Shown here one piece after another: positions 16,200-59,458 of a stretch of 64,000 bases of DNA. The first letter of the stretch is position 1, and each line of letters starts with the position of its first letter. Under the pieces are notes generated by a model. That model was not told the DNA's origin. It was given only the letters and a program-made list of their open reading frames with translations, and did no database searches. This stretch comes from Microbacterium sp. W4I20 (GTDB lineage Bacteria > Actinomycetota > Actinomycetes > Actinomycetales > Microbacteriaceae). Both the position numbers and the translations under genes were made by a program. The stretch is taken from the NCBI RefSeq assembly GCF_030816505.1, contig NZ_JAUSYB010000001.1, positions 1,674,001 to 1,738,000 on the forward strand, written 5' to 3'.

Positions 16200-17029
16200 G
16201 CCCCGGACTCGCGCGGCTCGACGAGCTCGCGGGTGTGGTAATCGATCAGGCCTTCGGGCGACGTCAGCACCGGGCGATCGAAGTCGCCCGTGAGGTACAT
16301 CGGCGTGATGAGATACGACTCCCGTGCCTGCCGCGGCCGCGCCCAGCGCACCCCGTTGGCGATGACGCGCTGCACGTCGGGGTGGTGGTACACCGGGTAG
16401 ATCTCGTCACCCGGGCTGAAGTAGAAGACCCGCCCGTGGCCGCGTCGATACGTGATCCCGCTGCGGAACACCTCGCCGCCGGAGAAGCTGCTGATGAAGA
16501 TCAGCTCATCCGGTTCGGGGATGTCGAAGTACTCGCCGTACATCTCCTGGCCCGGGATGATGAGCGGCTGGGGCACGCCTTCGGCGATCGGATGCCGCGG
16601 ATCCACCGTCCAGACCAGCTCCCGGTCGTTGTCGTTCCGCCAGCGCAGACTGCACGTCGTGCCCATCAGCCGGCGGAAGATCTTCGAGTGGTGCCCGGAG
16701 TGCAGGACGATGATCCCCATGCCCTCCAGCACATGCCGCTGGATGCGTTCGACGACCTCGTCGGAGACCTCTTCGTGCGCCGTGTGGCCCCACCACAGCA
16801 GCACGTCGGTGGCCGCGAGGGTCTCCTCGGTCATGCCGTGCTCGGGCTCGTCGAGCACGCGTGTCGACACCGTCACGTCGTCGCCGAGCAGACGGGTGAT
16901 CCCTTCGGCGATCGTCGAGTGCATCCCGTCGGGGTAGATGCCCCGCACGACGGGGTTCACCTGTTCGTGACGGTTCTCGCCCCAGACGACGACGCGGATG
17001 GTTTCGGTGGAAGTGGGGGTGAGGGTCAT
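16196..17029 (-). CDS. ThuA-like domain protein
   Basis: The 277-residue protein is a ThuA-like (trehalose-utilisation type, class I glutamine amidotransferase fold) protein. The core motifs are VVVWGENRHEQ, LLWWGHTAHEEV, GIIVLHSGHHSKIFRRLMG and RVFYFSPGDE. The Cys of true amidotransferases is absent. ThuA of rhizobia acts with the oxidoreductase ThuB on oxidised trehalose, and here too the gene is sandwiched between a Gfo/Idh oxidoreductase (4-bp overlap) and the alpha-galactosidase (4-bp overlap). The start at 17029 is fixed by the ATGA overlap. The reaction is unknown; action on a keto-glycoside made by the neighbour is inference. This type differs from the other two ThuA proteins in the window. 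Confidence 0.85.
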   Translation of the reverse strand: MTLTPTSTETIRVVVWGENRHEQVNPVVRGIYPDGMHSTIAEGITRLLGDDVTVSTRVLDEPEHGMTEETLAATDVLLWWGHTAHEEVSDEVVERIQRHVLEGMGIIVLHSGHHSKIFRRLMGTTCSLRWRNDNDRELVWTVDPRHPIAEGVPQPLIIPGQEMYGEYFDIPEPDELIFISSFSGGEVFRSGITYRRGHGRVFYFSPGDEIYPVYHHPDVQRVIANGVRWARPRQARESYLITPMYLTGDFDRPVLTSPEGLIDYHTRELVEPRESGA

Positions 17030-18183
17030 CGGGCGCCTCCTGACGCGTGAGGGTTCGCCCGGGGGGAACTCCCCCAGGGCCGGGTGGCAATGGCTTCCGC
17101 GGCACTCGGCCACGAGCGCAGCAGGTCGGCGACGTCGTCGCGCTGTTCGTCGGCGATGGCCTGCGCGAGGGATTCCTCCAGGAGCTCCTCGAGCACGACA
17201 CGGTCGCCCCCGCGTTCACTGCTGCGGATCGCGCCCTCCACCATCGCGAGGGTCAAGACGTTGGTCCGGACCTCGTTCTGCGGGGTGACGCCGGAATCGA
17301 GCGCGCTCACGAACTCCTCGAGAGCCCCCTCGATGCCTTCGCTCGCCTCGGCGACCTCGAACCCGATGTCTCCGGCATCCACCTGCACGACGTGATCGCC
17401 GTCCCAGCTCGCGGCCCCCTGCTCGGCGTAGATGCGCCAGTCGGCGTTCCAGGACGTCTGCAGGCCCGGAGTGCACCGGCTGCCGGAGTACACGAACCGT
17501 GCTCCGGAGGCGAGGTCGAAGGTCGCGGTCGCCGCGGCGTCGCCGGCGAACCAGCTCCACGGCGGGTTCCATGACGCGCACCGCACCGACACCGGCTCGT
17601 CCGCGGTCAGGTAGCGGAGCATGTCGAAGTGGTGCACCGACATGTCGACCAGGAGCGGATGCGCCATCTGCTCGCGGAATCCGGGCTCGTGGTCGGCGTG
17701 GAAGAACTGCGCGTGCACGGCACCGAGCGCCCCGAGCTGCGCGGCCGCATCGCGGAAGGCGGCAAGGTGGCGGAAGTAACGGCGCGATTGGCTCGCCATC
17801 AGCAGCTCACCGGTCAGGTCGGCCAGCGCCACCTGACGGAGCGCCTCCGCGACCGTCGGCGCCAGGGGTTTCTCGCACAGCACCGGCAGGCCCTGGCGCA
17901 TCGCCTCCTCGTTGACCACGCGGTGGGCCTGGGGCACGGTGACGTTGATCACCGCGCGGGCACCCGATCGCTCCACGACGTCGGCGAGAGAGGATCCGAC
18001 CGCGGCATCCTCCAGTCCGATCGACGAGACGGTCCGCATCGCGAGGTCGACATCCAGGTCGACGACGCCGACCGGCTCGGCGTGAGCGGATCGCGCGAGC
18101 ATCCGGAGCCACTCCCCGCCCATCGCACCGGCACCCACGACGATGACGGGCAGCCTCTGCGGAGGCGCGTCTGCTGTGGTCAT
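17026..18183 (-). CDS. Gfo/Idh/MocA family oxidoreductase
   Basis: The 385-residue protein is an NAD(P)-dependent sugar oxidoreductase. The Rossmann fold starts with VVGAGAMGGEWLRML, the catalytic-lysine motif is CEKPLA, and the C-terminal alpha/beta domain contains LLVDMSVHHFDMLRY. The start at 18183 has AAAGGA eight bases upstream. An ATG at 18192, overlapping the permease stop as ATGA, is the alternative but would sit directly against that Shine-Dalgarno. It lies between the permease and ThuA genes of the same operon. The sugar and the oxidised carbon cannot be read from the sequence. Confidence 0.88.
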   Translation of the reverse strand: MTTADAPPQRLPVIVVGAGAMGGEWLRMLARSAHAEPVGVVDLDVDLAMRTVSSIGLEDAAVGSSLADVVERSGARAVINVTVPQAHRVVNEEAMRQGLPVLCEKPLAPTVAEALRQVALADLTGELLMASQSRRYFRHLAAFRDAAAQLGALGAVHAQFFHADHEPGFREQMAHPLLVDMSVHHFDMLRYLTADEPVSVRCASWNPPWSWFAGDAAATATFDLASGARFVYSGSRCTPGLQTSWNADWRIYAEQGAASWDGDHVVQVDAGDIGFEVAEASEGIEGALEEFVSALDSGVTPQNEVRTNVLTLAMVEGAIRSSERGGDRVVLEELLEESLAQAIADEQRDDVADLLRSWPSAAEAIATRPWGSSPRANPHASGGAR

Positions 18184-35436: not shown

Positions 35437-36135
35437 ATGACGCAGAACAAGCAGGCCCTGATCGTCCGCGGAGGGTGGGATGGACACGAGCCGGTGCAGA
35501 CCACTGACTCGGTGATCCCGTTTCTCGAAGCGGAGGGATACCACGTCCGGGTCGAGGAGGGGACGGCCGTCTACGCCGACGCCGAGACCATGGCGGGCAT
35601 CGACCTCATCGTCCAGGTCAACACCATGAACACGATCGCCGACGACGAGCTCGCCGGGCTGATGGCCGCCGTCGTCGCCGGTACCGGACTGGCCGGATGG
35701 CACGGCGGCATCGCGGACTCCTACCGCAACAGCGCGGACTACCTGCAGCTGATCGGCGGGCAGTTCGCCCATCACGCCGCCGTGCCGAAGGACGAGCGCA
35801 CGGGCGAGCAGTCCGACCACTACCTCGACTTCACCGTGAACATCGTGCCCGAGCGGCGCGATCACCCGATCGTGTCGGGCATCGAGGACTTCTCCCTGCG
35901 CACGGAGCAGTACTGGGTGCTCTCCGACGCCTACAACGACGTGCTGGCGACGACCGAGATCGTGCACCGCGACTTCGACGCCTGGCACCACTCGTTCACG
36001 TCACCGGTGGTGTGGACGCGGCTGTGGGGTGCCGGCCGCGTCTTCGTCTGCACCGCCGGGCACAAGCTCGACGTGCTCGATGAGGCGCCGGTGCGCTCGA
36101 TCGTGGAGAGGGGGCTGCTGTGGGCCAGTCGCTGA
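35437..36135 (+). CDS. ThuA-like domain protein (paralogue 2)
   Basis: The 232-residue protein is a ThuA-like protein with core motifs ALIVRGGWDGHEP, GTGLAGWHGGIADSYRNS, SGIEDFSLRTEQYWV and SPVVWTRLWGAGRVFV. It is clearly paralogous to the ThuA-like protein at 57.5-58.2 kb, with nearly identical central motifs, and more distant from that at 16.2 kb. It lies 16 bp after the fucosidase gene, and its last 16 bp overlap the following Gfo/Idh gene. The biochemical role is unknown; partnership with that oxidoreductase is strongly suggested. Confidence 0.87.
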   Translation: MTQNKQALIVRGGWDGHEPVQTTDSVIPFLEAEGYHVRVEEGTAVYADAETMAGIDLIVQVNTMNTIADDELAGLMAAVVAGTGLAGWHGGIADSYRNSADYLQLIGGQFAHHAAVPKDERTGEQSDHYLDFTVNIVPERRDHPIVSGIEDFSLRTEQYWVLSDAYNDVLATTEIVHRDFDAWHHSFTSPVVWTRLWGAGRVFVCTAGHKLDVLDEAPVRSIVERGLLWASR

Positions 36136-37223
36136 ACGGGGGCGATGCTCCGCTGCGAGTCGGGATGGTCGGTGTCGGCTTCATCTCGCGGATGTACTTC
36201 GAGACGCTGCAGCGGATCAGCGACGAGGTGCGCCTCGTGCGCGTCGCCGATCTGGATGTCGAGCGCGCCGCGGCCGTCGGCGCCGCCCAGGGGGTACCCG
36301 GTGGCAGCGTCGACGATCTGCTCGCGGATCCGGACGTCGACATCGTCCTCAACCTCACGATCCCCGCGGCGCACGCCGACGTCTCCCTCCGTGCGCTCGA
36401 GGCCGGCAAGCACGTGTACGGCGAGAAGCCGCTGACCGTCACGCTGGCGGAGGCGCGGACCGTGCGCGAACTCGCCGCGCAGCGCGGGCTCTGGGTGGGC
36501 TGCGCTCCCGACACGGTTCTCGGAACCGGTATCCAGACCGCCCGTCGCGCCGTGGACGACGGTCTCATCGGACGACCGGTCGCGGCGACGGCGACCATGG
36601 CGATCCCGGGTCATGAGGCGTGGCATCCGAATCCCGACTTCTACTACGCGCCCGGAGGCGGACCCCTCTACGACATGGGTCCGTACTATCTGCACGCGCT
36701 GATCACGCTGCTCGGCCCGGTCGCGCGGGTCTCGGCTGTCGCATCGCGTCCACGAGAAGAACGGGTCATCGCCTCGGGTCCGCGCGCGGGCGAGCGCGTT
36801 CCCGTGCGCACCGACACCCACATCACCGGTCTGCTCGAGCACGTCGGAGGTGCGACGACGACACTCACCATGAGCTTCGACACCGTCGGCACCCGCGCGG
36901 TCCCGATCGAGGTGCACGGGCTCGAGGGATCGCTGATCGTGCCCGACCCGAACGAGTTCACAGGTACCACGCTGCTCAAGGTCCGCGGCAAGGACTGGGA
37001 GCCTCTTCCCGTGTCGGCGGGCTACGAGAACAGCGCCCGCGGCTTCGGTCTGCTCGACTTCCACCGCACCGCGGCCGGTGACGTACCGCGCGCGGACGCC
37101 GGCATCGCGTTCCACGCTCTCGAGATCATGGAGACCATGATGACCGCCTCGGTCGAGGGGCGACGTCTGGACCTCGATCCTGCGGCGGACCGGCCGACGG
37201 CCGTGCCTTTGACGTCACTCTGA
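36120..37223 (+). CDS. Gfo/Idh/MocA family oxidoreductase (paralogue of 56.5-57.6 kb gene)
   Basis: The 367-residue NAD(P)-dependent oxidoreductase has a Rossmann motif GMVGVGFISRMYF, a GEKPLTVT catalytic-lysine motif and a C-terminal domain with GGGPLYDMGPYYLHALI. It is paralogous along its length to the protein at 56481-57569, sharing GCAPDTVLGTGVQTAR-like and HEAWHPNPDFYY segments. The start is GTG 36120, inside the last codons of the ThuA gene, with GAGAGGGGG just upstream. The same nested start is seen in the second cassette. The substrate is unknown. Confidence 0.88.
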   Translation: MGQSLNGGDAPLRVGMVGVGFISRMYFETLQRISDEVRLVRVADLDVERAAAVGAAQGVPGGSVDDLLADPDVDIVLNLTIPAAHADVSLRALEAGKHVYGEKPLTVTLAEARTVRELAAQRGLWVGCAPDTVLGTGIQTARRAVDDGLIGRPVAATATMAIPGHEAWHPNPDFYYAPGGGPLYDMGPYYLHALITLLGPVARVSAVASRPREERVIASGPRAGERVPVRTDTHITGLLEHVGGATTTLTMSFDTVGTRAVPIEVHGLEGSLIVPDPNEFTGTTLLKVRGKDWEPLPVSAGYENSARGFGLLDFHRTAAGDVPRADAGIAFHALEIMETMMTASVEGRRLDLDPAADRPTAVPLTSL

Positions 37224-42217: not shown

Positions 42218-42325
42218 GTGCCTGCATCGAAGCAGAGAGGAAGCCAGATGAACATCCGCCCGAGGTTGATCGCCGGTTCCCCTCCCCCTCCCGCGTCCCC
42301 CGGCCTCGCGAGGTCCTCATGGTGA
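42218..42325 (+). CDS. Candidate leader ORF upstream of lplB-like permease
   Basis: A reading frame begins at GTG 42218, about six bases after the -10 hexamer and therefore possibly leaderless, and contains an in-frame ATG at 42248 preceded by GAGAGGAAG. It ends at TGA 42323-42325, overlapping the permease ATG (42319) by 7 bp in another frame. The peptide from the ATG is 25 residues and includes SPPPPASP, a polyproline run that tends to stall ribosomes. The parallel ORF at 49839 also starts with Pro-Ala and is proline-rich. Translation and function are unproven. Confidence 0.4.
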   Translation: MPASKQRGSQMNIRPRLIAGSPPPPASPGLARSSW

Positions 42326-43302
42326 GCCCGCCCGGTGTCGGCCTCGACGTCGGCGGCGTCACCCGAAAGCTCCGCGACCGGCGCAACTCCCGCGGATTCC
42401 GCGGACTCAAGCGCAGCTGGCGCCGGCATTGGCAGCTCTACCTGCTGATCCTGGTCCCGATCGCCTACTTCGTCATCTTCAAGTACATCCCGATGGCGAA
42501 CGCCATCATCGCGTTCAAAGATTACAACGTTATAGACGGCGTCTGGGGAAGCGACTGGGCCGGGGTGAAGCACTTCGAGCGCTTCTTCAACAACCCGATG
42601 TTCTGGCCGGTGCTCCGCAACACCTTCATCCTCTCCGCGTATGTCGTGCTGGCGAGCTTCCCGATCCCGATCATCCTCGCGCTCGCGCTGAACGAAGTCC
42701 GCCTGCGGTTCTTCAAGAACACCGTGCAGATGGTCACCTACGCCCCCTACTTCATCTCGACGGTCGTGGTCGTCTCCATGACGATCCTCTTCCTGTCGCC
42801 ACGGCTGGGCATCGCCGGGCATGTGACCCAGTTCTTCGGCCTGGGGTCCATCGACTTCCTCAGCGACCCGGAGTTCTTCCGGCACATCTACGTCTTCAGC
42901 GACATCTGGCAGACGATGGGCTATTCCGCCGTCATCTATCTGGCCGCCCTCGCGGGGATCGACCCCACGCTCTACGAAGCCGCACGGGTCGACGGCGCCA
43001 CCCGCTGGCAGAAGATCCTCAACGTCGACCTGCCCGGCATCCTGCCCACCGCGATGATCGTCCTCGTCCTCGGCGTCGGCAACGTCATGGCGATCGGCTT
43101 CGAGAAGGCCTACCTGCTGCAGAACAGCCTCAACATCTCGCAGTCCGAGATCATCGCGACCTACACCTACAAGGTCGGCCTGCTCAGCGCCGACTTCAGC
43201 CAGGCGGCGGCGATCGGACTGTTCAACGGCGTGATCAACCTCGGGCTGCTGCTCGGTGTGAACGCGATCGTGAAACGACTGACAGGAAACGGACTGTGGT
43301 GA
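42319..43302 (+). CDS. Sugar ABC transporter permease, LplB type
   Basis: The 327-residue protein is an LplB-like CUT1 permease. It has a basic cytoplasmic head, the family-typical RRHWQLYLLILVPIAYFVIFKYIPM first span, further spans and the EAA loop YEAARVDGATRWQKILNVDLP. I use ATG 42319, although it has only a weak ribosome-binding site and may rely on translational coupling to the leader ORF that ends across it. The frame is open upstream, but that part lies before the promoter. Its partner permease follows with a GTGA overlap. Confidence 0.92.
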   Translation: MVSPPGVGLDVGGVTRKLRDRRNSRGFRGLKRSWRRHWQLYLLILVPIAYFVIFKYIPMANAIIAFKDYNVIDGVWGSDWAGVKHFERFFNNPMFWPVLRNTFILSAYVVLASFPIPIILALALNEVRLRFFKNTVQMVTYAPYFISTVVVVSMTILFLSPRLGIAGHVTQFFGLGSIDFLSDPEFFRHIYVFSDIWQTMGYSAVIYLAALAGIDPTLYEAARVDGATRWQKILNVDLPGILPTAMIVLVLGVGNVMAIGFEKAYLLQNSLNISQSEIIATYTYKVGLLSADFSQAAAIGLFNGVINLGLLLGVNAIVKRLTGNGLW

Positions 43303-44261
43303 ACACGATGCTGAAAGAGACCTCCGGCAAGGCCGGCAGGAAGTCCCGTCTCCCGAGGTCGCGCAACGATTTCACGCCGACGCGCATCAAGGAACCGGTG
43401 GTCGACCGGTGGTTCATGGCGGGCGTGTACATCCTGCTCACCACCTTCCTGCTCGTGGTGCTGCTGCCGCTCATCTACATCCTCGCCAGCTCCTTCAGCG
43501 ACCCGCTCGCGGTGTCGTCGGGCCAGGTCACCTTCTGGCCGATCGACTTCACGCTCGAGGGTTACCAGCGCGCGCTCAGCGACAGCTCGATCCTCACCGG
43601 ATTCGGCAACTCGCTGTTCTACACGATCGCGGGCACGGCGATCAGCCTGGTGCTCACGGTCGCGATCGCCTATCCGCTGTCCCGACAGGACTTCTGGGGC
43701 CGACGCGGCATCACCGTCTTCGTGGTGTTCACCATGCTGTTCGCCGGCGGCATCATCCCCATGTACCTCGTCGTCCAGAACCTCGGTCTGCTCGACACCC
43801 GGTGGGCCATCATCCTCCCGCAGGCCATCGGCGTCTGGCAGGTGATCATCGCCGTCGCATTCTTCCGGTCGTCGATCCCCGATGAACTCTACGAAGCCGC
43901 CCAGCTGGACGGCGCGAGCGATCTGCGCTTCCTCTTCTCGACGGTGCTGCCCCTGTCGAAGCCGCTCCTCGCGGTGATCGCGCTGATGTACGCGATCTTC
44001 CAGTGGAACTCCTACTTCGATGCGCTGCTCTATCTGCGCAATCCGGATCTCTTCCCCCTCCAACTCGTGCTCCGAAACGTGCTGATCCTCAATCAGGCCG
44101 CCCCCGGCCTGGACGCGGCCGCCGCCATGGAACGGCAACAGCTCGCCGACCTGATGAAGTACTCGCTCATCGTCATCTCGACCGTGCCGGTGATGCTCGT
44201 CTACCCGTTCGTCGCCCGCTTCTTCAACAAGGGGATCCTGATCGGGGCCGTCAAGGGGTGA
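43299..44261 (+). CDS. Sugar ABC transporter permease, LplC/YtcP type
   Basis: The 320-residue protein is the LplC-like partner permease, with six spans, the typical VVLLPLIYILASSFSDPLAV segment, a YEAAQLDGASDLRFLFSTVLP EAA-like loop and the C-terminal FNKGILIGAVKG. The start is GTG 43299, overlapping the LplB stop as GTGA; ATG 43308 is an alternative. No ATPase is encoded nearby, so a shared MsiK-type ATPase is assumed. Confidence 0.92.
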   Translation: MNTMLKETSGKAGRKSRLPRSRNDFTPTRIKEPVVDRWFMAGVYILLTTFLLVVLLPLIYILASSFSDPLAVSSGQVTFWPIDFTLEGYQRALSDSSILTGFGNSLFYTIAGTAISLVLTVAIAYPLSRQDFWGRRGITVFVVFTMLFAGGIIPMYLVVQNLGLLDTRWAIILPQAIGVWQVIIAVAFFRSSIPDELYEAAQLDGASDLRFLFSTVLPLSKPLLAVIALMYAIFQWNSYFDALLYLRNPDLFPLQLVLRNVLILNQAAPGLDAAAAMERQQLADLMKYSLIVISTVPVMLVYPFVARFFNKGILIGAVKG

Positions 44262-49963: not shown

Positions 49964-51634
49964 TTGTCCAGACAACACCTATCCGACAGGATGCGACACA
50001 GCCGTCGCTCCGTCGCCGGCTTCGCGGCGGTCGCCGTACTGGCCACCGCGATGGTCGCCTGTTCCCCCAGCTCGGAGGACGACCAGAAGGTCATCACCAT
50101 CTTCGGCGAGCAGGGCGGGCAGATGGATCTGAACACCAACTCGTTCACCCTCCTCATGGAGGAGAAGTTCGACGTCGACATCCAGTTCGAGACGACCGGC
50201 TACGAATCCGGGGCGGCGAACGAGGCCCGCCAGGTCTCCCTGGCCGGCGGCGACCTGCCCGAGGCGTACATGCTCGTCCCGTGGGCTTCGCAGTTCAACA
50301 AGGCGGAGCTGCAGCGCTACGGCGACCAGGGTGTGATCCTCCCGCTGAACGACCTCATCGACAAGTACGCGCCGAACATCGCCGACGCCCTCGCCGCCGA
50401 GCCCGGCTTCGAGTCGCTCGCCACCGCACCCGACGGCAAGATCTGGGGACTGCCGCAGTGGAACGACTGCTACCACTGCTCCTACCCGTACAAGTTCTGG
50501 ATCAACCAGGAATGGCTGAAAGCACTCGGACTCGACGCGCCGACGACACCCGATGAGTTCTTCGACGTCATGATGGCGTTCAAGACGGAAGACCCCAACG
50601 GCAACGGCGTCGCGGACGAGATCCCGATCACCGGCAGCTCGCAGTGGTCGATCGTGCCGTTCATCATGAACGCCTTCGTCTCCAACTCCTTCAACACCGG
50701 AGCCGGTGCGAACGGGCAGCCCATCTCCCTGGGACTCGACGGGGACACGGTACAGATGCAGCCGATGCAGGACGGATGGCGGGAGGGCCTGGCGTTCCTC
50801 AACAAGATGTGGGAGGCAGGGCTCATCGATCCCGCCGCGTTCTCGCAGGGTGACGACACCATGCAGGGCACGGGCAACAACGCCGAAGCGGTGATCGTCG
50901 GCGGGGCCACGGCCATCCACTCCGGCATCTTCGTGAGCATCGGTCAGGAAGACGGTCGCGACAACCAGTACTTCCCGATCGCGCCGCTCGAGGGACCCGG
51001 CGGTGCGAATGCGACATACCAGCTGCCGAGCATCCCCGGTGCCACCTTCGTCGTCACGAAGGCCGCCGACGAGACGGAGCAGAAGGTCATCATGGAGATG
51101 ATGGACTACCTCTTCACCGAGGAAGGCCACATGCGCGGCGAGTTCGGCGAGCAGGACATCGGCTGGCGCGCGGCGGAGCCGGACGAGATCGCCCTCGACT
51201 CCGACCTCGAAGCGACCTTCTTCGACATCCTGGTGGATGAGGAGAACGAAGCCGACTACAACGGCAGCTGGGGCCCGATGGCCCAGGTGTTCGAGACCAC
51301 GGAGTTCCGCAACGCCCAGGTGGCGCCGCTCGACATCAACACGCAGCCGGGCTTCGAGCGTCGACTCTTCGAGGCGACCGAGCTCTACGACGGCAAGGAC
51401 TCCGATGCGATGTTCCCGTACTGGGACCTCTGGGTCCCCGTCGAGGAGGGCAACGAACTGTCCACGCTGACCGCCAACATCGAGAGCAATGTGGCGACAT
51501 CGACCGCCGAGTTCGTCACCGGGGTGCGCGACCCGAACAGTGACGGCGACTGGAACGGCTACCTGGACGGCCTGAAGGGCCTGGGCGTCGACCGCTACCT
51601 GGAGATCTGGCAGGCCGCGTACGACGCGAGCTGA
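49964..51634 (+). CDS. Extracellular sugar-binding lipoprotein, LipO/LplA type
   Basis: The 556-residue lipoprotein is the receptor for the LplB/LplC permeases encoded 5.7 kb upstream. The signal peptide ends in MVACS with Cys33 lipidated. The mature part has the long SBP typical of this group, with DPNGNGVADEIPITG (a calcium-loop-like segment seen in LplA proteins) and GANATYQLPSIPG. The start appears to be TTG 49964 with GAGAGG seven bases upstream; ATG 49991 is the alternative and would shorten the cytoplasmic head. Large plant-type oligosaccharides are typical ligands of the group. Confidence 0.9.
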   Translation: MSRQHLSDRMRHSRRSVAGFAAVAVLATAMVACSPSSEDDQKVITIFGEQGGQMDLNTNSFTLLMEEKFDVDIQFETTGYESGAANEARQVSLAGGDLPEAYMLVPWASQFNKAELQRYGDQGVILPLNDLIDKYAPNIADALAAEPGFESLATAPDGKIWGLPQWNDCYHCSYPYKFWINQEWLKALGLDAPTTPDEFFDVMMAFKTEDPNGNGVADEIPITGSSQWSIVPFIMNAFVSNSFNTGAGANGQPISLGLDGDTVQMQPMQDGWREGLAFLNKMWEAGLIDPAAFSQGDDTMQGTGNNAEAVIVGGATAIHSGIFVSIGQEDGRDNQYFPIAPLEGPGGANATYQLPSIPGATFVVTKAADETEQKVIMEMMDYLFTEEGHMRGEFGEQDIGWRAAEPDEIALDSDLEATFFDILVDEENEADYNGSWGPMAQVFETTEFRNAQVAPLDINTQPGFERRLFEATELYDGKDSDAMFPYWDLWVPVEEGNELSTLTANIESNVATSTAEFVTGVRDPNSDGDWNGYLDGLKGLGVDRYLEIWQAAYDAS

Positions 51635-51718: not shown

Positions 51719-52603
51719 ATGCACACACGCACACTCGGCAACGACACCGTCGGCCGCACCGAGGTCGGAGCGATCGGGCTCGGCCTGATGACCTTCGACC
51801 AGACGGGCCATCAGCCCAGACCGCAGCTGCTCGACACCGTGCGCGCCGCGCTCGACGCCGGCGTCACCCTCTTCGACACCGCCGATGCCTACGGCCCCGG
51901 CGATGAGCTGGGTGCCGAGGCCCAGGGCGAGAACGAGAGGCTCATCGCCTCGATCCTCGACGAGCTGGGCGTGCGCGATCGCGTTCTCCTCGCCACCAAG
52001 GGCGGTGCGTTCCGCATCGAGGGCGGCGGCTGGGACCACGATGGTCGTCCGGAGCACCTGCGTCGCGCGGTCGATGCCAGCCTGTCTCGACTCGGAGTCG
52101 AACAGATCGCGCTCTGGCAGCACCACCGTCCCGACGCCACGATCGACTATGCGGAGACGATCGGCGCACTCACCGAGATCGCCGCCAGCGGCAAGGTGCG
52201 GATGATCGGGATCTCCAACGCAGACCCTGCGCAGATCCGGGCCGCGCACGCGGCGCTGGGCGACAGCCTGGTCAGCGTGCAGAACCAGTTCAGCCCGAAG
52301 TTCCGCAGCAGCCGACCCGAGATCGACGTCTGCAATGAACTGGGTCTGGCCTTCCTGGCCTGGAGCCCGCTCGGCGGGCTGTCGGATGCGAAGGAGCTGG
52401 CCGACCGGCATCCGGCCTTCCAGCAGGTGGCCGAGGCCCGCGGCGTGAGCGCCCAGCAGGTGGCGCTGGCGTGGGAGCTCGCGCAGGCGCCGGTGGTCAT
52501 CCCGATCCCGGGAGCCAAGCGGCCGCAGTCGGTCATCGACTCCGCCGCGGCCGCCGACCTCGAGCTGACCACCGACGAGCTGGCCGCGCTCGACCAGGTC
52601 TGA
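51719..52603 (+). CDS. Aldo/keto reductase
   Basis: The 294-residue protein is an NADPH-type aldo/keto reductase. Catalytic residues are visible: Asp and Tyr in LFDTADAYGPG, Lys in LATKGG and His in ALWQHHRPD, with IPIPGAKRPQSV as the cofactor-phosphate loop. AAAGGA precedes the ATG. It follows the sugar-binding lipoprotein and may reduce a released sugar or glycoside aldehyde. It is not a close paralogue of the AKR at 32.0 kb. Confidence 0.88.
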   Translation: MHTRTLGNDTVGRTEVGAIGLGLMTFDQTGHQPRPQLLDTVRAALDAGVTLFDTADAYGPGDELGAEAQGENERLIASILDELGVRDRVLLATKGGAFRIEGGGWDHDGRPEHLRRAVDASLSRLGVEQIALWQHHRPDATIDYAETIGALTEIAASGKVRMIGISNADPAQIRAAHAALGDSLVSVQNQFSPKFRSSRPEIDVCNELGLAFLAWSPLGGLSDAKELADRHPAFQQVAEARGVSAQQVALAWELAQAPVVIPIPGAKRPQSVIDSAAAADLELTTDELAALDQV

Positions 52604-52637
52604 GTCCCGCAGGCTGCACACCGCACCTGCACATCGC

Positions 52638-52680
52638 AGAGGACGCCCGCTCAGCGCACAGCGCTCAGCGGGCGTCCTCT
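52638..52680. terminator. Two-part terminator hairpin
   Basis: A perfect 14-bp outer stem (AGAGGACGCCCGCT) encloses a 5-bp inner stem (AGCGC/GCGCT) with one C-C mismatch between them. It lies between the convergent AKR and TIM-barrel genes. A partial second copy of the right arm (AGCGGGCGTTCT) follows at 52687. Confidence 0.8.
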
Positions 52681-52697
52681 GGTTTCAGCGGGCGTTC

Positions 52698-53702
52698 TTA
52701 CGCCTTGGTGGAGAATGCCGCGTCGAAGGCGGCATCGGGTGGGGTGATCGCGGCGAGCTTCTGCACGAACGCGAGCGCCTCCGGGGCTCCGTGCAGGCGG
52801 TCCATGCCGGCGTCCTCCCACTCCACACTCGTCGGACCCGTGTACCCGATCGCATTCAGCGCGCGGAACAACGGCTCCCACTTCACCGCACCGTGCCCGG
52901 TGGAGACGAACGTCCACCCGCGCCGCGGATTCGCCCACGGCAGATGCGAGCCCAGCACCCCGTTACGGCCGTCAAGGTTCGTGATCGACTCCTTCACGTG
53001 CACGTGGAAGATGTGCTCCGCGAAATCCAGCACGAATGCGACCGAATCCAACTGCTGCCAGACGAAGTGCGACGGATCGAAGTTGAACCCGAAACTCGCC
53101 CGGTGCCCGATCGCGTCGAGCGTCGCCTTCGCGGTCCAATAGTCGTAGGCGATCTCCGACGGATGCACCTCGAGCGCGAACCGCACACCGACCTCCTCGA
53201 ACACATCCAGGATCGGGTTCCACCGGTCGGCGAAGTCCTGGTACCCGGCCGCGATGAACTCATCCGACGCCGGCGGGAACATCGCCACGGCCTTCCAGAT
53301 GCTCGACCCGGTGAACCCGTTCACCGTCGACACACCGAGCTTCGCGGCGAACCGGGCCGTGTCCTTCAGATCCTCCGCGGCGCGCTGTCGCACGCCCTCC
53401 GGGTCGCCGTCGCCCCATACCCGGTCGGAGAGGATGTCACGGTGGCGGACGTCGATCGGGTCGTCGCACACCGCCTGCCCGGTCAGGTGGTTCGAGATCG
53501 CCCACACCTGTAGCCCGTTGCGTTCCAGGATGTCGCGACGCGACTGCACATACTCCTCGTCGTCCCAGCGGGAGACGTCGATGTGGTCGCCCCAACAGGC
53601 GATCTCCAACCCGTCATACCCCCACTCCCCCGCAAGACGCGCGACCTCCTCGAACGGCAGATCGGCCCACTGACCGGTGAACAACGTGATCGGACGTGCC
53701 AT
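52698..53702 (-). CDS. Sugar phosphate isomerase/epimerase family TIM-barrel protein
   Basis: The 334-residue protein belongs to the xylose-isomerase-like TIM-barrel superfamily. The four metal ligands of the fold are apparent: Glu in [13 protein letters not shown], Asp in [10 protein letters not shown], His in IFHVHVKES and Glu in [11 protein letters not shown]. Family members isomerise or epimerise sugars and cyclitols, and some cleave 3-keto-glycosides by elimination. GAAGGAG precedes the ATG. It is the last gene of the ThuA-Gfo/Idh-GH51-Gfo/Idh operon. IolE-like inosose dehydration is another option, since iolE is missing from the inositol operon. Confidence 0.88.
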
Positions 53703-53752
53703 GAACGACTCCTTCGTAGAAACGTGGCGGGTGATGCGGTGGAGGATGTGCG

Positions 53753-54925
53753 TCAGCGTACCCGGGTGTAGCGGCCTTCGTCGCCGGCGCTCTCCTCGAC
53801 CGCCGCGAGCACCCGCTGCACCTGATAGGCGTCGGCGAACGTCGGCGGTTCCGGCGTGCCGTCGATCGATCGCACGAAGTCGACGACCTGGTGCGTGAAC
53901 GTGTGCTCGTAGCCGAGACCGTGCCCGGTGGGCCACCACGCGTCCGCGTAGGGGTGCGCGGGATCGGTGGCCTGGATCGTGCGGAATCCGCGGCGATCGT
54001 CGGCGTCGTCCTCGCTGTAGTACTCGAGCTCGTTCATCCGCTCGAAGTCGAACGCGATCGAGCCGCGATCGCCGTTGATCTCGATGCGATTGGCATTGCG
54101 GTGCCCGAGCGCCATGCGCGTCGCCTCGAACACCCCGAGCGCGCCGCCGCTGAACCCGGCGATGAACGCCGCCGCGTCGTCGACGTCGACCGGCAGGCGC
54201 TCGGCGTCGAGGTCGCCCGTGCCGCCGAGTCCCACCTCGGCGCTCCGCTGGGGGCGTGAGGTCACGAACGTGCGGAGGTGCGCCGACACGCCCTCGATCC
54301 GTTCGCCGGTCAGCCACTGCGCGGTGTCGATGCTGTGCGCACCGATGTCGCCGAGAGCGCCGGAGCCCGCCGAGGCCCGGTCGAGACGCCAGGTGTGCGG
54401 GGAATCCGCGTCGCTCAGCCAGTCCTGCAGGTACTGGGCGCGCACATGCCGGATGGTGCCGAGGGCGCCCTCGGCGATCAGGCGACGGGCCGAGGCGAGC
54501 GCGGGCGTGCGACGGTAGCTGTAGCCGCACAGCGCGACGATGCCCTGCCGTGCGGCGGCATCCGCGGCGGCGACCATCTCGGCGGCATCCGCCGGATCGT
54601 TCGCGAGCGGCTTCTCGCACAGGACGTGCTTGCCTGCCCGGAGAGCCGCGATCGCGATCTCCGCGTGCGTGTCGCCCGGCGTGCAGATGTCGATCACATC
54701 GATGTCATCGCGTTCGACCACGGACCGCCAGTCGCCCGACCAGCTGTCCCAGCCCCAGTCGTGCGCCGCCTTCTGACCGCGCGTCTCATCGCGCGACACC
54801 AGCACCGAGAGCCGGGGCTCCCGCGGCAGGTCGAAGAAGCGTGGTGCGGTGCGCCAGGCGTGCGAGTGCGCCCGCGCCATGAAGCCTGCACCGATCACGG
54901 CCACCCGCAGCGGACTCGTCGTCAT
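53753..54925 (-). CDS. Gfo/Idh/MocA family oxidoreductase
   Basis: The 390-residue protein has the Rossmann motif [17 protein letters not shown], the CEKPLAN catalytic-lysine motif and the [16 protein letters not shown] substrate-domain motif with the usual Asp and His. It resembles the inositol dehydrogenase/levoglucosan dehydrogenase-like branch rather than the two ThuA-linked paralogues. The ATG at 54925 overlaps the GH51 stop by 4 bp. It could oxidise arabinose, a cyclitol or a glycoside carbon; the sequence does not decide. Confidence 0.88.
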
Positions 54926-56484
54926 GACGCCACTTCCTCTCGCTCGATCGCCGGGTGTTCCGGCTCCAGTTCCAGTTCTACCGTGGCGAAGGAGTGCGGC
55001 GGCAGGGTCACGGTCAACATCCCGTCGCGCAGCACGGTCTCGAGCGCGCGCGGGGCCACCCGGTCGGGCGTCTCGGCATCGTTGAACGCCGAGGCCTCGT
55101 CACCGGTGAGCACGCGAGCCCCGGTGACATTCGCTCCTCGACCGCGCAGATCGATGCTCACGGTGCAGTCGGCGTCGAGCCCGAGGTGGCTGAGCGAGAT
55201 CAGCGCGGTGTCGTCCCGCGTCGAAGCCGACATCGACACCAGCGGGAGATCCTCGCCGCGCACGCGGGCCGTCGGCACCTGGCGCAGATGCGTCGGCAGG
55301 TGCAGCGCGTCCTGATGCCCCTTGTTCATCTCGAACACGTGGTACGTCGGCGTCAGCACGAGCGTGTCGCCGTCGGTGAGGACCATGGCCTGCAGCACGT
55401 TGACCGTCTGCGCGATGTTCGCCATCGAGATGCGGCGCGCGTAGCGGTGGAAGACGTCGAAGTGCATCCCCGCCACCAGCGCATCGCGCACGGTGTTCTG
55501 CTGGAAGAGGAAGCCGGGGTTCGTGCCGTCCTCGACGTTCCACCAGGTTCCCCACTCATCGCACACGAGCGAGACGCGGTTCTCGGGATCGTACGAGTCC
55601 ATCACGGCCACGTGTCCCCGCACGACGCGCTCGACGTCGGCGGCGTAGGCCATCGTCTCGTAGTACTTCTCGTCGCTGAAGGGAGCGGCATCCTCGGTGT
55701 TGATGCCCGAGCCGGAGTGCGTGTAGTAGTGGAACGAGATCGCCTGGTACGGCAGGTTGCCGTAGAGCGTGCAGCCGTGGCACTCCATGAGCGTCTTCAT
55801 CAGCACGCGCGTCCAGTCGAGGTCGTCCTCGTTGGCGCCGGCCGCGATGCGGGTGAGCCGGTTGTCGCCGTGATTGTGGGTGAAGGTGGCGTAGCGCCGG
55901 GCCTCCTCGGCGTAGTGCGCGGCCGACATGTTTCCGCCGCATCCCCACGCCTCGTTCCCGAGTCCCCAGAACGGGACCTTCCACGGCTCGTCCCGGCCGT
56001 TCTCCCGCCGGAGCCGCGCCATCGGGCTGTCGTCGCCCCGGGTCAGGTACTCGACCCACTCGGACATCTCCTGCACGGTGCCGCTGCCGATGTTGCCGTT
56101 GACGTAGGCGTCGGCGCCGAGCAGGTCGCAGAGGTCCATGAACTCGTGCGTGCCGAAGTGGTTGTTCTCCACCACGTCGCCCCAGTTGGTGTTCGCGATC
56201 TGCGGCCGCAGCTCGCGCGGACCGATGCCGTCGCGCCAGTGATAGGTGTCGGCGAAGCATCCGCCCGGCCAGCGGAGGTTCGGGATGTCGAGGGCCTTCA
56301 GGGCCTCGACGATGTCGAGACGGATGCCGCGCACGTTCGGGATCGCGGAGTCCTCGCCCACCCAGAAGCCGTCGTAGATGCAACGGCCCAGATGCTCGGC
56401 GAAGTGCCCGTAGATGTGCCGGTTGATGCGATCGCCGGTCACGTCGAGGTCGATGATCGCGCGCGCGGTCGTGGTGGTGGTCAA
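54922..56484 (-). CDS. GH51 alpha-L-arabinofuranosidase
   Basis: The 520-residue protein is an intracellular GH51 enzyme that removes alpha-L-arabinofuranosyl residues. The acid/base is Glu178 in GLGNEAWGCGG and the nucleophile Glu310 in VCDEWGTWW. The NRHIYGHFAEHLGRCIYDG start and the C-terminal beta domain are typical. The start is TTG 56484 with GGAGAAAG six bases upstream, overlapping the stop of the Gfo/Idh gene as TTGA. The frame extends further upstream only as a shadow of that gene. Confidence 0.94.
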   Translation of the reverse strand: MTTTTTARAIIDLDVTGDRINRHIYGHFAEHLGRCIYDGFWVGEDSAIPNVRGIRLDIVEALKALDIPNLRWPGGCFADTYHWRDGIGPRELRPQIANTNWGDVVENNHFGTHEFMDLCDLLGADAYVNGNIGSGTVQEMSEWVEYLTRGDDSPMARLRRENGRDEPWKVPFWGLGNEAWGCGGNMSAAHYAEEARRYATFTHNHGDNRLTRIAAGANEDDLDWTRVLMKTLMECHGCTLYGNLPYQAISFHYYTHSGSGINTEDAAPFSDEKYYETMAYAADVERVVRGHVAVMDSYDPENRVSLVCDEWGTWWNVEDGTNPGFLFQQNTVRDALVAGMHFDVFHRYARRISMANIAQTVNVLQAMVLTDGDTLVLTPTYHVFEMNKGHQDALHLPTHLRQVPTARVRGEDLPLVSMSASTRDDTALISLSHLGLDADCTVSIDLRGRGANVTGARVLTGDEASAFNDAETPDRVAPRALETVLRDGMLTVTLPPHSFATVELELEPEHPAIEREEVAS

Positions 56485-57569
56485 CGCTTTCTCCAGGAGT
56501 TCTCGGGGGTGAAGGGGATGAGTGCCGGCCGCTCCGGAGCAGTGGTCAGGTCGATGCGTCGGCCGCTGGCCGCGGACTCCGTCAGCGCCGTCATGATCTC
56601 GAGCACGTGCAGGGCGATGTCGCCGCGTGCGCTCCCGGCGCCGGTGGCGAGGCGGTCGAGGACGCCGATCCCGCGACCGGCGTTCTCGTACCCGGCGCGC
56701 TCGGTCACCGGGGTCCAGACGCCCTCCCCCGGCCGCCGCAGCCGCACGACGCCCTCGAAGAGGTTGGGGTCGGGCACCGACAGCGTGCCGGTCTCTCCGT
56801 GGACCTCGAGCGGAGCGGCATCCGTCGCCGTCCCGTCGAAGCTGAAGGTGACGGTCGACACCGCTCCGCCGACGTGCTCGAGGATGCCGGTCACATGGGT
56901 GTCGATCTCGACCGGGATGGTCTCCCCCGCCCGCGGTCCCGAGCCGATCGTGCGCACGGCCTTCGGGCGGGACGACGCCCCGGAGACGCGGGCGACCGGG
57001 CCCAGCAGATGGAACAGCGTCGTGAGGTAGTACGGCCCCATGTCGAACAGGGGCCCACCCCCGTCGCGGTAGTAGAAGTCGGGGTGCGGATGCCACGCCT
57101 CGTGCCCCGATGAGACCCAGGTCGCCACTGCGGCGACGGGGCGGCCGATGGTGCCGGCATCCACCGCGGCCCGCGCTGTCTGCACACCCGTGCCGAGCAC
57201 GGTGTCCGGCGCGCAGCCGACCCAGGCCGACCCGCCGGCCTCGATGACCAGGCGGGCATCGTCGAGCGTCGCCGCGAGCGGCTTCTCCCCGAAGACGTTC
57301 TTGCCTCCCGCGAGCGCAGCGAGCGCGACCTCGGCGTGCGCGGCCGGGATCGTGAGGTTGATGACGGTGTCGACGGACGGGTCCGAGACGAGGTCGTCGA
57401 CGCTGAGCGCGCGGCACCCCGGATACCGGGCGGCGACCGCCTCGGCTCTGGCGGTGTCGAGGTCGGCGGTCGCGGCGATGCGCACGTCCGGGTGCGCGCC
57501 GAGCGTGTCGAGGTACTGCGTCGAGATGACGCCGAGACCCACTATTCCTATGCCGTGCGGCTGGCCCAC
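56481..57569 (-). CDS. Gfo/Idh/MocA family oxidoreductase (paralogue of 36.1-37.2 kb gene)
   Basis: The 362-residue oxidoreductase has IGIVGLGVISTQYLDTL, FGEKPLAATL and GGGPLFDMGPYYLTTL motifs. It is paralogous to the 36120-37223 product throughout. The start is GTG 57569, nested in the last 22 bp of the ThuA gene with GAGAGGGGG just upstream, as in the other cassette. The stop overlaps the GH51 start. Substrate unknown. Confidence 0.88.
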   Translation of the reverse strand: MGQPHGIGIVGLGVISTQYLDTLGAHPDVRIAATADLDTARAEAVAARYPGCRALSVDDLVSDPSVDTVINLTIPAAHAEVALAALAGGKNVFGEKPLAATLDDARLVIEAGGSAWVGCAPDTVLGTGVQTARAAVDAGTIGRPVAAVATWVSSGHEAWHPHPDFYYRDGGGPLFDMGPYYLTTLFHLLGPVARVSGASSRPKAVRTIGSGPRAGETIPVEIDTHVTGILEHVGGAVSTVTFSFDGTATDAAPLEVHGETGTLSVPDPNLFEGVVRLRRPGEGVWTPVTERAGYENAGRGIGVLDRLATGAGSARGDIALHVLEIMTALTESAASGRRIDLTTAPERPALIPFTPENSWRKR

Positions 57570-58249
57570 AGCATCCCCCTCTCGATGATGGTGCGGACGC
57601 TCGTGTCGCGCAGGACGGCGAGGCTGTGCCCCGGTGTGGCGACGAACACCCGGCCCTGACCCCATTCGCGGGTCCAGACGGCCGGTGACGTGATCGGCCG
57701 ATGCCACGGGTGGAACGGCTGCACAGGGTGGGTGGTCGTGGCGAGGACGTCGTTGAGGTCATCGGTCAGCACCCAGTACTGCTCGGTGCGGAGCGTGAAG
57801 TCCTCGATGCCCGCCATGATCTCGTGCCCGCGGCCGAGGTCGGTGACGTCGACGGTGTAGCAGAGGAAGTTGTCGGCCTCGCCGCCCTCGCGCGCGTCCG
57901 GGTGCTTGCCGGGGTGGGTGGCGAACTGGCCGCCGACGAGCTGCAGGTAGTCGGAGCTGTTGCGGTACGAGTCGGCGATGCCGCCGTGCCATCCGGCGAG
58001 GCCCGTGCCGCGCTCGACCGCACCGCGGAGGCCCTTCAGCGCCTCGTCCGAGATGTCCGACATCGTGACGCTCTGCACGATGAGGTCGGTGCGGTCCATC
58101 TCCTCGCGGTCGGCGTAGATCTCGTTGGAGTCCTCGACCCGCACGTCGAAACCGTTGTCGGCCAGGAACGGGAGGAACATGTCGGTGGACTCGACGGGGC
58201 GGTGCCCTTCCCAGCCCCCGCGCACCACGAGTGCTCTGCGCGCGGTCAT
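57548..58249 (-). CDS. ThuA-like domain protein (paralogue 3)
   Basis: The 233-residue protein carries ALVVRGGWEGHRP, GTGLAGWHGGIADSYRNS, AGIEDFTLRTEQYWV and SPAVWTREWGQGRVFV, matching the ThuA protein at 35.4 kb motif for motif. The start is ATG 58249 with GGGAGGA six bases upstream. It is the first gene of the five-gene operon and diverges from the LacI gene. It presumably works with the overlapping Gfo/Idh enzyme. Confidence 0.88.
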   Translation of the reverse strand: MTARRALVVRGGWEGHRPVESTDMFLPFLADNGFDVRVEDSNEIYADREEMDRTDLIVQSVTMSDISDEALKGLRGAVERGTGLAGWHGGIADSYRNSSDYLQLVGGQFATHPGKHPDAREGGEADNFLCYTVDVTDLGRGHEIMAGIEDFTLRTEQYWVLTDDLNDVLATTTHPVQPFHPWHRPITSPAVWTREWGQGRVFVATPGHSLAVLRDTSVRTIIERGMLWASRTA

Positions 58250-58412: not shown

Positions 58413-58424
58413 TTTTGCGCAAAA
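58413..58424. promoter_or_regulatory. LacI-type operator TTTTGCGCAAAA
   Basis: A perfect 12-bp palindrome with central GC step lies eight bases before the LacI ATG, in the 183-bp divergent region with the ThuA operon. It likely mediates autoregulation by the LacI protein. No ribosome-binding site is visible for that gene, so its mRNA may be leaderless or the operator may cover the initiation site. No other clear element is seen in 58250-58412. Confidence 0.65.
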
Positions 58425-58432
58425 ATGGTGCG

Positions 58433-59458
58433 ATGACCACGTCGCCGCGCATCACGCTCACCGACGTCGCGAAGCGCGCGGGGGTCAGCGTGGCCACGGC
58501 GTCACGCGCGCTGCGGGCACGGGGCGAGATGGCGGCGGACACCCGATCGCGCGTGCTGCGCGCGGCGACGGAGCTCGGATACCCCACCGTCGGGCAGGTG
58601 CGCGGGCGTCCGCGACGCGGCACATCGCTGATGTTCGACCTGGTGCTCGGGCACTTCCACGATCCCTACACGCAGGAGATCACGGCGGGTGCCCGCACCA
58701 CCGCCTCCGAGCTCGGCTACGACCTGGTCCTCACGGCCGAGCGCGACGATCCGGCGGACGACTGGCCGGAACGCATCCGCTCCCGAGGCTCCGCCGGCAT
58801 CATCGTCGGCCTCATCGTGCCGACCAGCACCCAGATCGCCGCGATGCGTCGCGCCTCCATCCCGCTGGTGCTGATGGAACCGCCCTCGGAGGCGTCGAGC
58901 CCCCTGCCGAGCCTGCGGACCACCGATCGTGCGGGTGGCGGCGCGGCAGCCAGGCACCTGATCGAGCGGGGCGCTCAGCGCTTCATCGTGATCGGCGGAG
59001 CACCGTCCTATCGCTACGGACGCGCACGGGTGGACGGCTTCGTCCGCACCATCGACGAGATCGCACCGGGCGCGGCGTGCGTGCGCACCAGCGCGGACTG
59101 GAGCGCCTGGGATGCCCGGAGGGCGTGCGCCCGCGCGCTCGCGGAGCTGCCGGGCAGCGGGCCGATCGGGGTGTTCGCCTGCTCCGACGAGATGGCCGCC
59201 GGCGCCTACCGCGCGATCGCCGACAGCGGCCGGAGCATCCCCCGCGACGTCCTGGTCGTGGGCTTCGACGATGTGCGCGGAGCGCGCTGGCTGCATCCGT
59301 CACTGACCACGATCCGCCAGCCGATCCGTGAGATGGCTTCGGCGGCGGTGCGCATCCTCGCCCAGGCGACGGCGGGCGGCGAGGTCTCGACCGAGGCCAT
59401 CGTCATGCCGACCGAGCTCGTCGAGCGCGGCTCGACCCGCCCGCTCGTCAGGGAGTGA
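58433..59458 (+). CDS. LacI family transcriptional regulator
   Basis: The 341-residue protein has the helix-turn-helix ITLTDVAKRAGVSVATASRAL, a hinge (GRPRRGTS) and a sugar-binding effector domain. It diverges from the ThuA-Gfo/Idh-GH51 operon and converges on the GH127 gene, so it is the natural regulator of the arabinose-related genes. The ATG at 58433 is the first in-frame start next to the conserved domain; upstream open frame is a shadow of the ThuA gene. Its last 11 bp overlap the GH127 3' end. Confidence 0.92.
   Translation: MTTSPRITLTDVAKRAGVSVATASRALRARGEMAADTRSRVLRAATELGYPTVGQVRGRPRRGTSLMFDLVLGHFHDPYTQEITAGARTTASELGYDLVLTAERDDPADDWPERIRSRGSAGIIVGLIVPTSTQIAAMRRASIPLVLMEPPSEASSPLPSLRTTDRAGGGAAARHLIERGAQRFIVIGGAPSYRYGRARVDGFVRTIDEIAPGAACVRTSADWSAWDARRACARALAELPGSGPIGVFACSDEMAAGAYRAIADSGRSIPRDVLVVGFDDVRGARWLHPSLTTIRQPIREMASAAVRILAQATAGGEVSTEAIVMPTELVERGSTRPLVRE

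Follow-up and report, generated by a model that had tools for sequence, protein, structure and literature searches.

A candidate LacI-controlled operon for oxidative glycoside cleavage, with ThuA and a hydratase-like TIM barrel, in Microbacterium sp. W4I20

Microbacterium sp. W4I20 carries a minus-strand operon of five genes, thuA, gfo1, a glycoside hydrolase (GH) family 51 gene, gfo2 and tim, that probably serves to dismantle a sugar-bearing, likely plant-derived glycoside by oxidation, cleavage, hydration and reduction under LacI control, with ThuA in the slot of an eliminase. We analyzed a window of 64,000 nucleotides (C1:1674001-1738000 of the 4.31-Mb genome), in which the five genes, in this order, fill positions 52698-58249 exactly:

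57548-58249, minus strand: thuA, ThuA family protein of 233 amino acids (aa; PF06283, 147.5 bits), proposed 3-keto-glycoside cleaving enzyme
56481-57569, minus strand: gfo1, Gfo/Idh/MocA oxidoreductase of 362 aa with a GTG start (PF01408 and PF22725), proposed NAD-dependent glycoside 3-dehydrogenase, ThuB-like by position
54922-56484, minus strand: GH51 alpha-L-arabinofuranosidase of 520 aa with a TTG start (PF06964, 152.8 bits; best solved relative the alpha-L-arabinofuranosidase 2vrk, 582 bits)
53753-54925, minus strand: gfo2, Gfo/Idh/MocA oxidoreductase of 390 aa, proposed 3-keto-sugar reductase
52698-53702, minus strand: tim, xylose-isomerase-like TIM barrel of 334 aa (PF01261, 146.9 bits), proposed 2-hydroxy-3-keto-glycal hydratase

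With start codons chosen from frame and spacing, the genes overlap by 22 bp (thuA/gfo1), 4 bp (gfo1/GH51) and 4 bp (GH51/gfo2), and a 50-bp gap separates gfo2 from tim, in agreement with the operon described in the original prediction. Gene set, order and linkage can be read from the sequence, as can the family and hydratase affinity of the TIM barrel and a predicted operator dedicated to the operon.

A PDB search with the TIM barrel at E 1e-3 returned only 2zds (506.8 bits), for which no function is named, and 8ro4 (122.8 bits), named 2-hydroxy-3-keto-glucal hydratase, which we take to be AtHYD of Agrobacterium tumefaciens. Thirteen orthologs keep E178, H180, D209, H233 and E294 without exception, and 8ro4 has a matching residue for each. 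An 18-row tree grouped the protein and its orthologs with 8ro4 at a support of 93/94, a value below the one the program marks with a star and obtained with long branches. Forcing the protein into a clade with two IolE-like rows was rejected by the approximately unbiased (AU) test (p-AU 0.0144); one of these two reference genes adjoins an IolG gene that scores above its cut-off. On the NCBIfam IolE model the TIM barrel reached 30.6 bits, against a cut-off of 290. Taken together, the 8ro4 match, the tree and the rejected IolE alternative argue that the operon encodes a hydratase of the kind found in four-enzyme keto-glycoside pathways. The TIM barrel thus looks like an enzyme acting after cleavage rather than the cleaving enzyme itself, and the earlier proposal that either ThuA or the TIM barrel cleaves the glycoside is not supported, as worded, in its second half. 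According to PMC10628242, the metal ligands of AtOGE are one residue per strand on four strands, with the catalytic His two residues past the first ligand, and C-glycoside eliminases have Glu in place of the first His ligand. By our own mapping, made by motif, the Glu-x-His of the TIM barrel fits the C-glycoside eliminase form of this metal site.

Gfo2 scores as levoglucosan-dehydrogenase-like, although below the cut-off (384 bits on NF052479, cut-off 650), rather than as IolG (115.5 bits, cut-off 355); its PDB matches are 4h3v (493.5 bits) and 6a3f (308.2 bits). An inositol-type operon, with relatives of IolG and IolE lying beside GH51 by chance, would account for a generic pair of Gfo/Idh protein and TIM barrel and for the weak NCBIfam matches to IolG (115.5 bits for Gfo2, 53.5 for Gfo1) and IolE. 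These scores lie far under the respective cut-offs, the AU test separates the TIM barrel from the IolE-like rows, and the best matches are a hydratase and, for Gfo2, levoglucosan-dehydrogenase-like. We therefore rejected this explanation on the NCBIfam scores and the AU test, and consider it extremely improbable. Placement of the TIM barrel with IolE and of Gfo2 with IolG was the result that would have spoken against the original prediction; the two proteins fall elsewhere, and the assignment of the genes to keto-glycoside rather than inositol catabolism is supported, with the TIM barrel moved from cleavage to hydration.

The reactions, the directions of Gfo1 and Gfo2 and the substrate we infer as follows. 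GH51 would take off an arabinofuranosyl group, after which Gfo1 would oxidize the next sugar at C3 with nicotinamide adenine dinucleotide (NAD). ThuA would then cleave the glycosidic bond of the 3-keto-glycoside, probably via elimination, since the operon encodes a hydratase. The TIM barrel would hydrate the resulting 2-hydroxy-3-keto-glycal, and Gfo2 would reduce the 3-keto sugar to the free sugar, regenerating NAD. The two Gfo/Idh proteins of the operon would be the oxidoreductases of this pathway. A dedicated TIM-barrel eliminase of the LgdB1, AtOGE or CarB/CGE type is absent from the operon, which has one TIM barrel among its five genes, and queries with CarB, CarC and an OGE-like protein found no match in the window. 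With three of the four slots matched by other genes, ThuA is left over for cleavage; that it is indeed the cleaver has, in our estimate, not quite an even chance.

ThuA belongs to a family of wide distribution, with 7,284 proteins matched by a single search and six matches in this genome. Among 37 relatives H88 is invariant, and H16, D55, D126, H142 and R194 are nearly so. A single-sequence search of the PDB gave no match, and a profile found only 1t0b, 4e5v and 4jqs, none of them named for an activity; in the open-licence PMC literature searched we found no report of ThuA's own reaction. The best PDB matches of a Gfo1 profile were 4gqa (101.6 bits), DgpA (94.4 bits) and 6jw6 (93.6 bits), and Gfo1 reached 51.1 bits on the levoglucosan dehydrogenase model. 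Gfo1 keeps the EKP motif and has DMGPYY (D176, Y180, Y181) where Gfo2 has DIGAHS, and its relatives do likewise. The catalytic His usual in Gfo/Idh proteins is missing in this thuA-linked Gfo1 family. Further pairs of ThuA and Gfo/Idh genes lie in the window at 35437-37223 (plus strand) and 16196-18123 (minus strand), one of them after a GH95 gene, and the genome has additional ThuA loci, several of them paired with Gfo/Idh (L007:863-2724; L009:9560-13790).

To see how the genes are linked elsewhere, we compared 80 related thuA loci, the best 80 of 570 confirmed matches and thus biased to close relatives; the nearest matches are mostly Microbacterium. A gfo1-type gene directly follows thuA in 75 of these loci, GH51 lies within 3 kb after thuA in 20, and gfo2 is immediately upstream of thuA in 29, with two further loci having it downstream at a distance of up to 6 kb. 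A separate draw of 150 family genomes contained thuA in 61, tim in 98 and both in 57, so that tim occurs in 57 of 61 thuA-bearing genomes versus 41 of 89 others (table 57/4/41/48). The class-level table reads 25/5/40/127, assuming that both draws are the same 197 genomes and with E-value limits that differ between the two proteins. Genome size may inflate these co-occurrence odds; adjacency is independent of it. In 15 of the 150 genomes, under ten genus labels, thuA and tim lie at most 5 kb apart, always on one strand, against an expectation of 0.25 for the 76 within-genome pairs (assuming one 11-kb target in a 3.4-Mb genome). The grouping exceeds chance. The view that tim is not coupled to thuA, suggested by the nearest 80 loci, was overturned by this wider draw. 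In the 14 cassettes other than our operon, gfo2 always adjoins tim or thuA on the same strand, and in ten of them gfo2, tim, thuA and gfo1 stand together on one strand. The remaining four have gfo2-tim-thuA; three (L188, L190, L193) show no gfo1-type gene that passes the match limit, and L189 has it on the other strand. A genome of another family in the order (G151) also has gfo2, tim, thuA and a gfo1-type gene in this arrangement.

Several findings weigh against a coherent pathway with ThuA as its cleaver. tim is present in one of the 80 related thuA loci and missing from 79, including the closest locus of the same thuA-gfo1-GH51-gfo2 order (L042), and GH51 occurs in none of the 14 other cassettes. 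Since tim is rare in the near thuA loci and GH51 absent from the cassettes, the operon is, judged by these comparisons, a join in which the thuA-tim cassette, of wider occurrence, meets a thuA-gfo1-GH51(-gfo2) operon of Microbacterium. The 8ro4 grouping has the long branches and sub-star support given above, the two IolE-like reference rows themselves score only 156 and 126.5 bits, under the IolE cut-off, and both Gfo1 and Gfo2 fall under every curated NCBIfam cut-off. ThuA paralogs have lyase-type neighbors in L009 as well as in the C-glycoside cluster (L008, L151), so ThuA need not be the cleaver, and an OGE-like TIM barrel shares the loci L194 and L189 with ThuA. Finally, the related hydratase LgdB2 of Bacillus smithii is reported (PMC7676230) to cleave 3-keto-levoglucosan weakly and unaided, and in this sense to be partly bifunctional.

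The last three points would suit a variant of the same pathway in which ThuA acts as a partner of Gfo1 or handles its product, for example in 3-keto formation or as a keto-sugar isomerase, while elimination falls either to the TIM barrel, in addition to hydration, or to an eliminase encoded elsewhere in the genome. The 22-bp overlap of thuA and gfo1 and their pairing in the related loci are as expected of a complex, and OGE-like and CarB-type proteins are indeed encoded in the genome. However, CarB and CarC queries gave no match in 16 cassette loci and the OGE-like query matched in two (L189, L194), leaving 12 of the 14 other cassettes with neither type within about 17-18 kb (one query each); moreover, the agreement of each gene with one slot of the known four-gene pathways would then be coincidence. 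We regard this variant as rather unlikely. As a separate observation, the small TIM barrels of L194 (8455-10292) and L189 (3515-6485), each next to a Gfo/Idh gene in a ThuA-tim locus, are related to a protein that, among solved structures, matches AtOGE 8bvk best (55.6 bits).

For the pathway with ThuA as eliminase, a plausible substrate would be a plant glycoside that is arabinosylated or resembles arabinogalactan, because GH51 is part of the operon and GH127, two GH36-type, GH2, GH95 and one further GH2 gene surround it. GH51 would also suit an oxidative use of the released L-arabinose, in which Gfo1 oxidizes C1, ThuA opens the lactone and the TIM barrel isomerizes, and Gfo1 does weakly match L-arabinose 1-dehydrogenases (32.7 bits). 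On the other hand, a gene of the AraA isomerase family, scoring above cut-off, is present in the genome, so arabinose itself has its usual route, and Pfam names no sugar-acid dehydratase family among the five genes. The 14 other cassettes have this gene set but lack GH51, and the TIM barrel is hydratase-like. We rejected this route in view of AraA and hold it to be very unlikely.

Control by LacI, part of the original prediction, gained support from a candidate operator next to the operon. This and the other features outside the coding regions are:

58413-58424, no strand: candidate LacI operator TTTTGCGCAAAA, from the genome search and related gaps
58433-59458, plus strand: divergent LacI-family regulator, start uncertain (PF00356, 52.3 bits; PF13377, 124.1 bits; read from 58400)
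53703-53738, minus strand: 36-bp stretch with ribosome-binding site upstream of tim, identical ahead of the twin tim (locus L008)
52637-52681, minus strand: strong hairpin 3' of tim, by folding energy against shuffles

A divergent lacI is found in 35 of the 80 related thuA loci. The operator TTTTGCGCAAAA is a 12-bp palindrome derived by comparing the lacI gaps of these related loci; it is the sole site in the genome at no more than one mismatch and the sole site in the window with at least 10 of 12 positions. All 35 related gaps match at 10 or more positions (four at 12, 20 at 11 and 11 at 10), whereas 9 of 700 length-matched random stretches drawn from these loci do so. A search with the LacI core AANCGNTT found only one site, which is unrelated, and an operator-like site is absent from the neighboring GH127, GH36 and GH2 genes. 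A single conserved operator without copies at the neighboring GH genes indicates that the operon has a dedicated, predicted switch of its own. At the other end, tim converges with an aldo-keto reductase gene (akr), and the hairpin lies between the two; the region 52600-52700 (101 nt) has a minimum free energy of -59.1 kcal/mol, with a z-score of -5.3 against 200 shuffles, and no T run follows the hairpin.

The genome holds one other tim, at C1:1618048-1619046 (locus L008:10049-11083), which differs from the window copy by 61 silent and three amino-acid codon changes in 333 codons. The 36 bp ahead of the start are identical in both, and 31 of them also precede the copy in a relative (G314). This twin lies in a C-glycoside cluster comprising, in one direction, a GMC oxidase, two CarB-like TIM barrels, two CGDB beta subunits, a gfo2 paralog and, following it, tim, with a divergent ThuA gene. 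The cluster's gfo2 paralog is 53% identical to window gfo2. Its GMC oxidase reached 827.6 bits to 7qf8 and 785.6 bits to 7dve, which we take to be the C-glycoside oxidases PsG3Ox and MtCarA. The one CarB-like TIM barrel compared with the PDB matched the C-glycoside deglycosidase 7dnm/7dnn at 195 bits. In G314 all eight cluster genes recur in unchanged order, 90-99% identical, and L042, with a ThuA 91% identical, has the thuA-gfo1-GH51-gfo2 order without tim. The simplest history consistent with these comparisons would be a copying of tim out of this cluster onto the operon end, the comparison in this detail covering one close relative with the full order. Two near-identical tims (window 52698-53738 and L008:10049-11083) thus stand beside strongly diverged gfo2 genes, like a copied or gene-converted unit. 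The cluster itself extends beyond L008 (genome G000, C1:1617248-1632905) and looks like a C-glycoside degradation cluster, with the GMC oxidase, the two CarB-like TIM barrels and, over some 12 kb, four matches to CGDB beta subunits.

Pfam finds no transporter among the five operon genes, and so no sugar ATP-binding cassette (ABC) importer. The nearest permeases (42319-44261) and a solute-binding-like gene (49964-51634) lie on the strand opposite to the operon; the latter encodes, on the plus strand, a secreted-looking protein of 556 aa that resembles solute-binding proteins on visual inspection and matches nothing in Pfam or NCBIfam at E 0.001.

Overall, we tentatively propose that ThuA represents a third kind of 3-keto-glycoside cleaver, one that is not a TIM barrel, and that dehydrogenase, ThuA, hydratase and reductase form a mobile Microbacteriaceae cassette able to combine with different glycoside hydrolases; this is possible, if somewhat doubtful as a whole. 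Here an arabinosidase operon would have received a copy of the hydratase gene of the C-glycoside cluster, giving a pathway for oxidative debranching and cleavage that is controlled by its own LacI. A recurrent four-gene cassette with ThuA in the eliminase position makes the ThuA reaction testable with purified proteins and 3-keto substrates. If the proposal is true, catalogues of carbohydrate-active enzymes limited to classical hydrolases overlook part of the glycan degradation carried out by actinobacteria of soil and plants.

Among known systems, rhizobial thuAB handles trehalose and other disaccharides via 3-keto derivatives. The operon likewise has ThuA adjoining a Gfo/Idh protein, but it lacks a trehalose importer and adds a hydratase, a second oxidoreductase and GH51. 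For a thuAB-like pair, 3-keto-maltose formation has been proposed from expression data (PMC4765114), and DUF1080 is treated as the 3-keto-disaccharide hydrolase in PMC9007349. The levoglucosan operon lgdA-lgdB1-lgdB2-lgdC of B. smithii S-2701M (PMC7676230) proceeds by oxidation, elimination, hydration and reduction. Our operon, as proposed, resembles it in this four-step logic, in LacI and sugar ABC genes close by, in a hydratase with a TIM-barrel fold and in two oxidoreductases of the Gfo/Idh type. The levoglucosan eliminase LgdB1, however, is a second, small TIM barrel, where the present operon has ThuA; GH51 is found only in the latter, and Gfo2 misses the levoglucosan dehydrogenase cut-off. 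The GlycDH-AtOGE-AtHYD-Gfo operon of A. tumefaciens (PMC10628242) runs the same four steps on O-glycosides and is similar in logic and in its hydratase. It differs in that AtOGE is a Mn TIM barrel, and its first enzyme, GlycDH, may be unrelated to Gfo1. The Car C-glycoside route of Microbacterium (CarA, CarBC; PMC10646112 and PMC12724307) has in common with the operon a near-identical tim and a gfo2 paralog, both within the present genome. In place of its flavin adenine dinucleotide (FAD) oxidase and CarB/CarC-type lyase genes the operon has Gfo1 and ThuA, and the CarB-like TIM barrel and CGDB beta subunit, absent from the operon and the window, are present elsewhere in the genome. The ThuA family is named after trehalose use. 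The cassette with ThuA in the eliminase slot is probably best read as a variant of the published four-enzyme logic.

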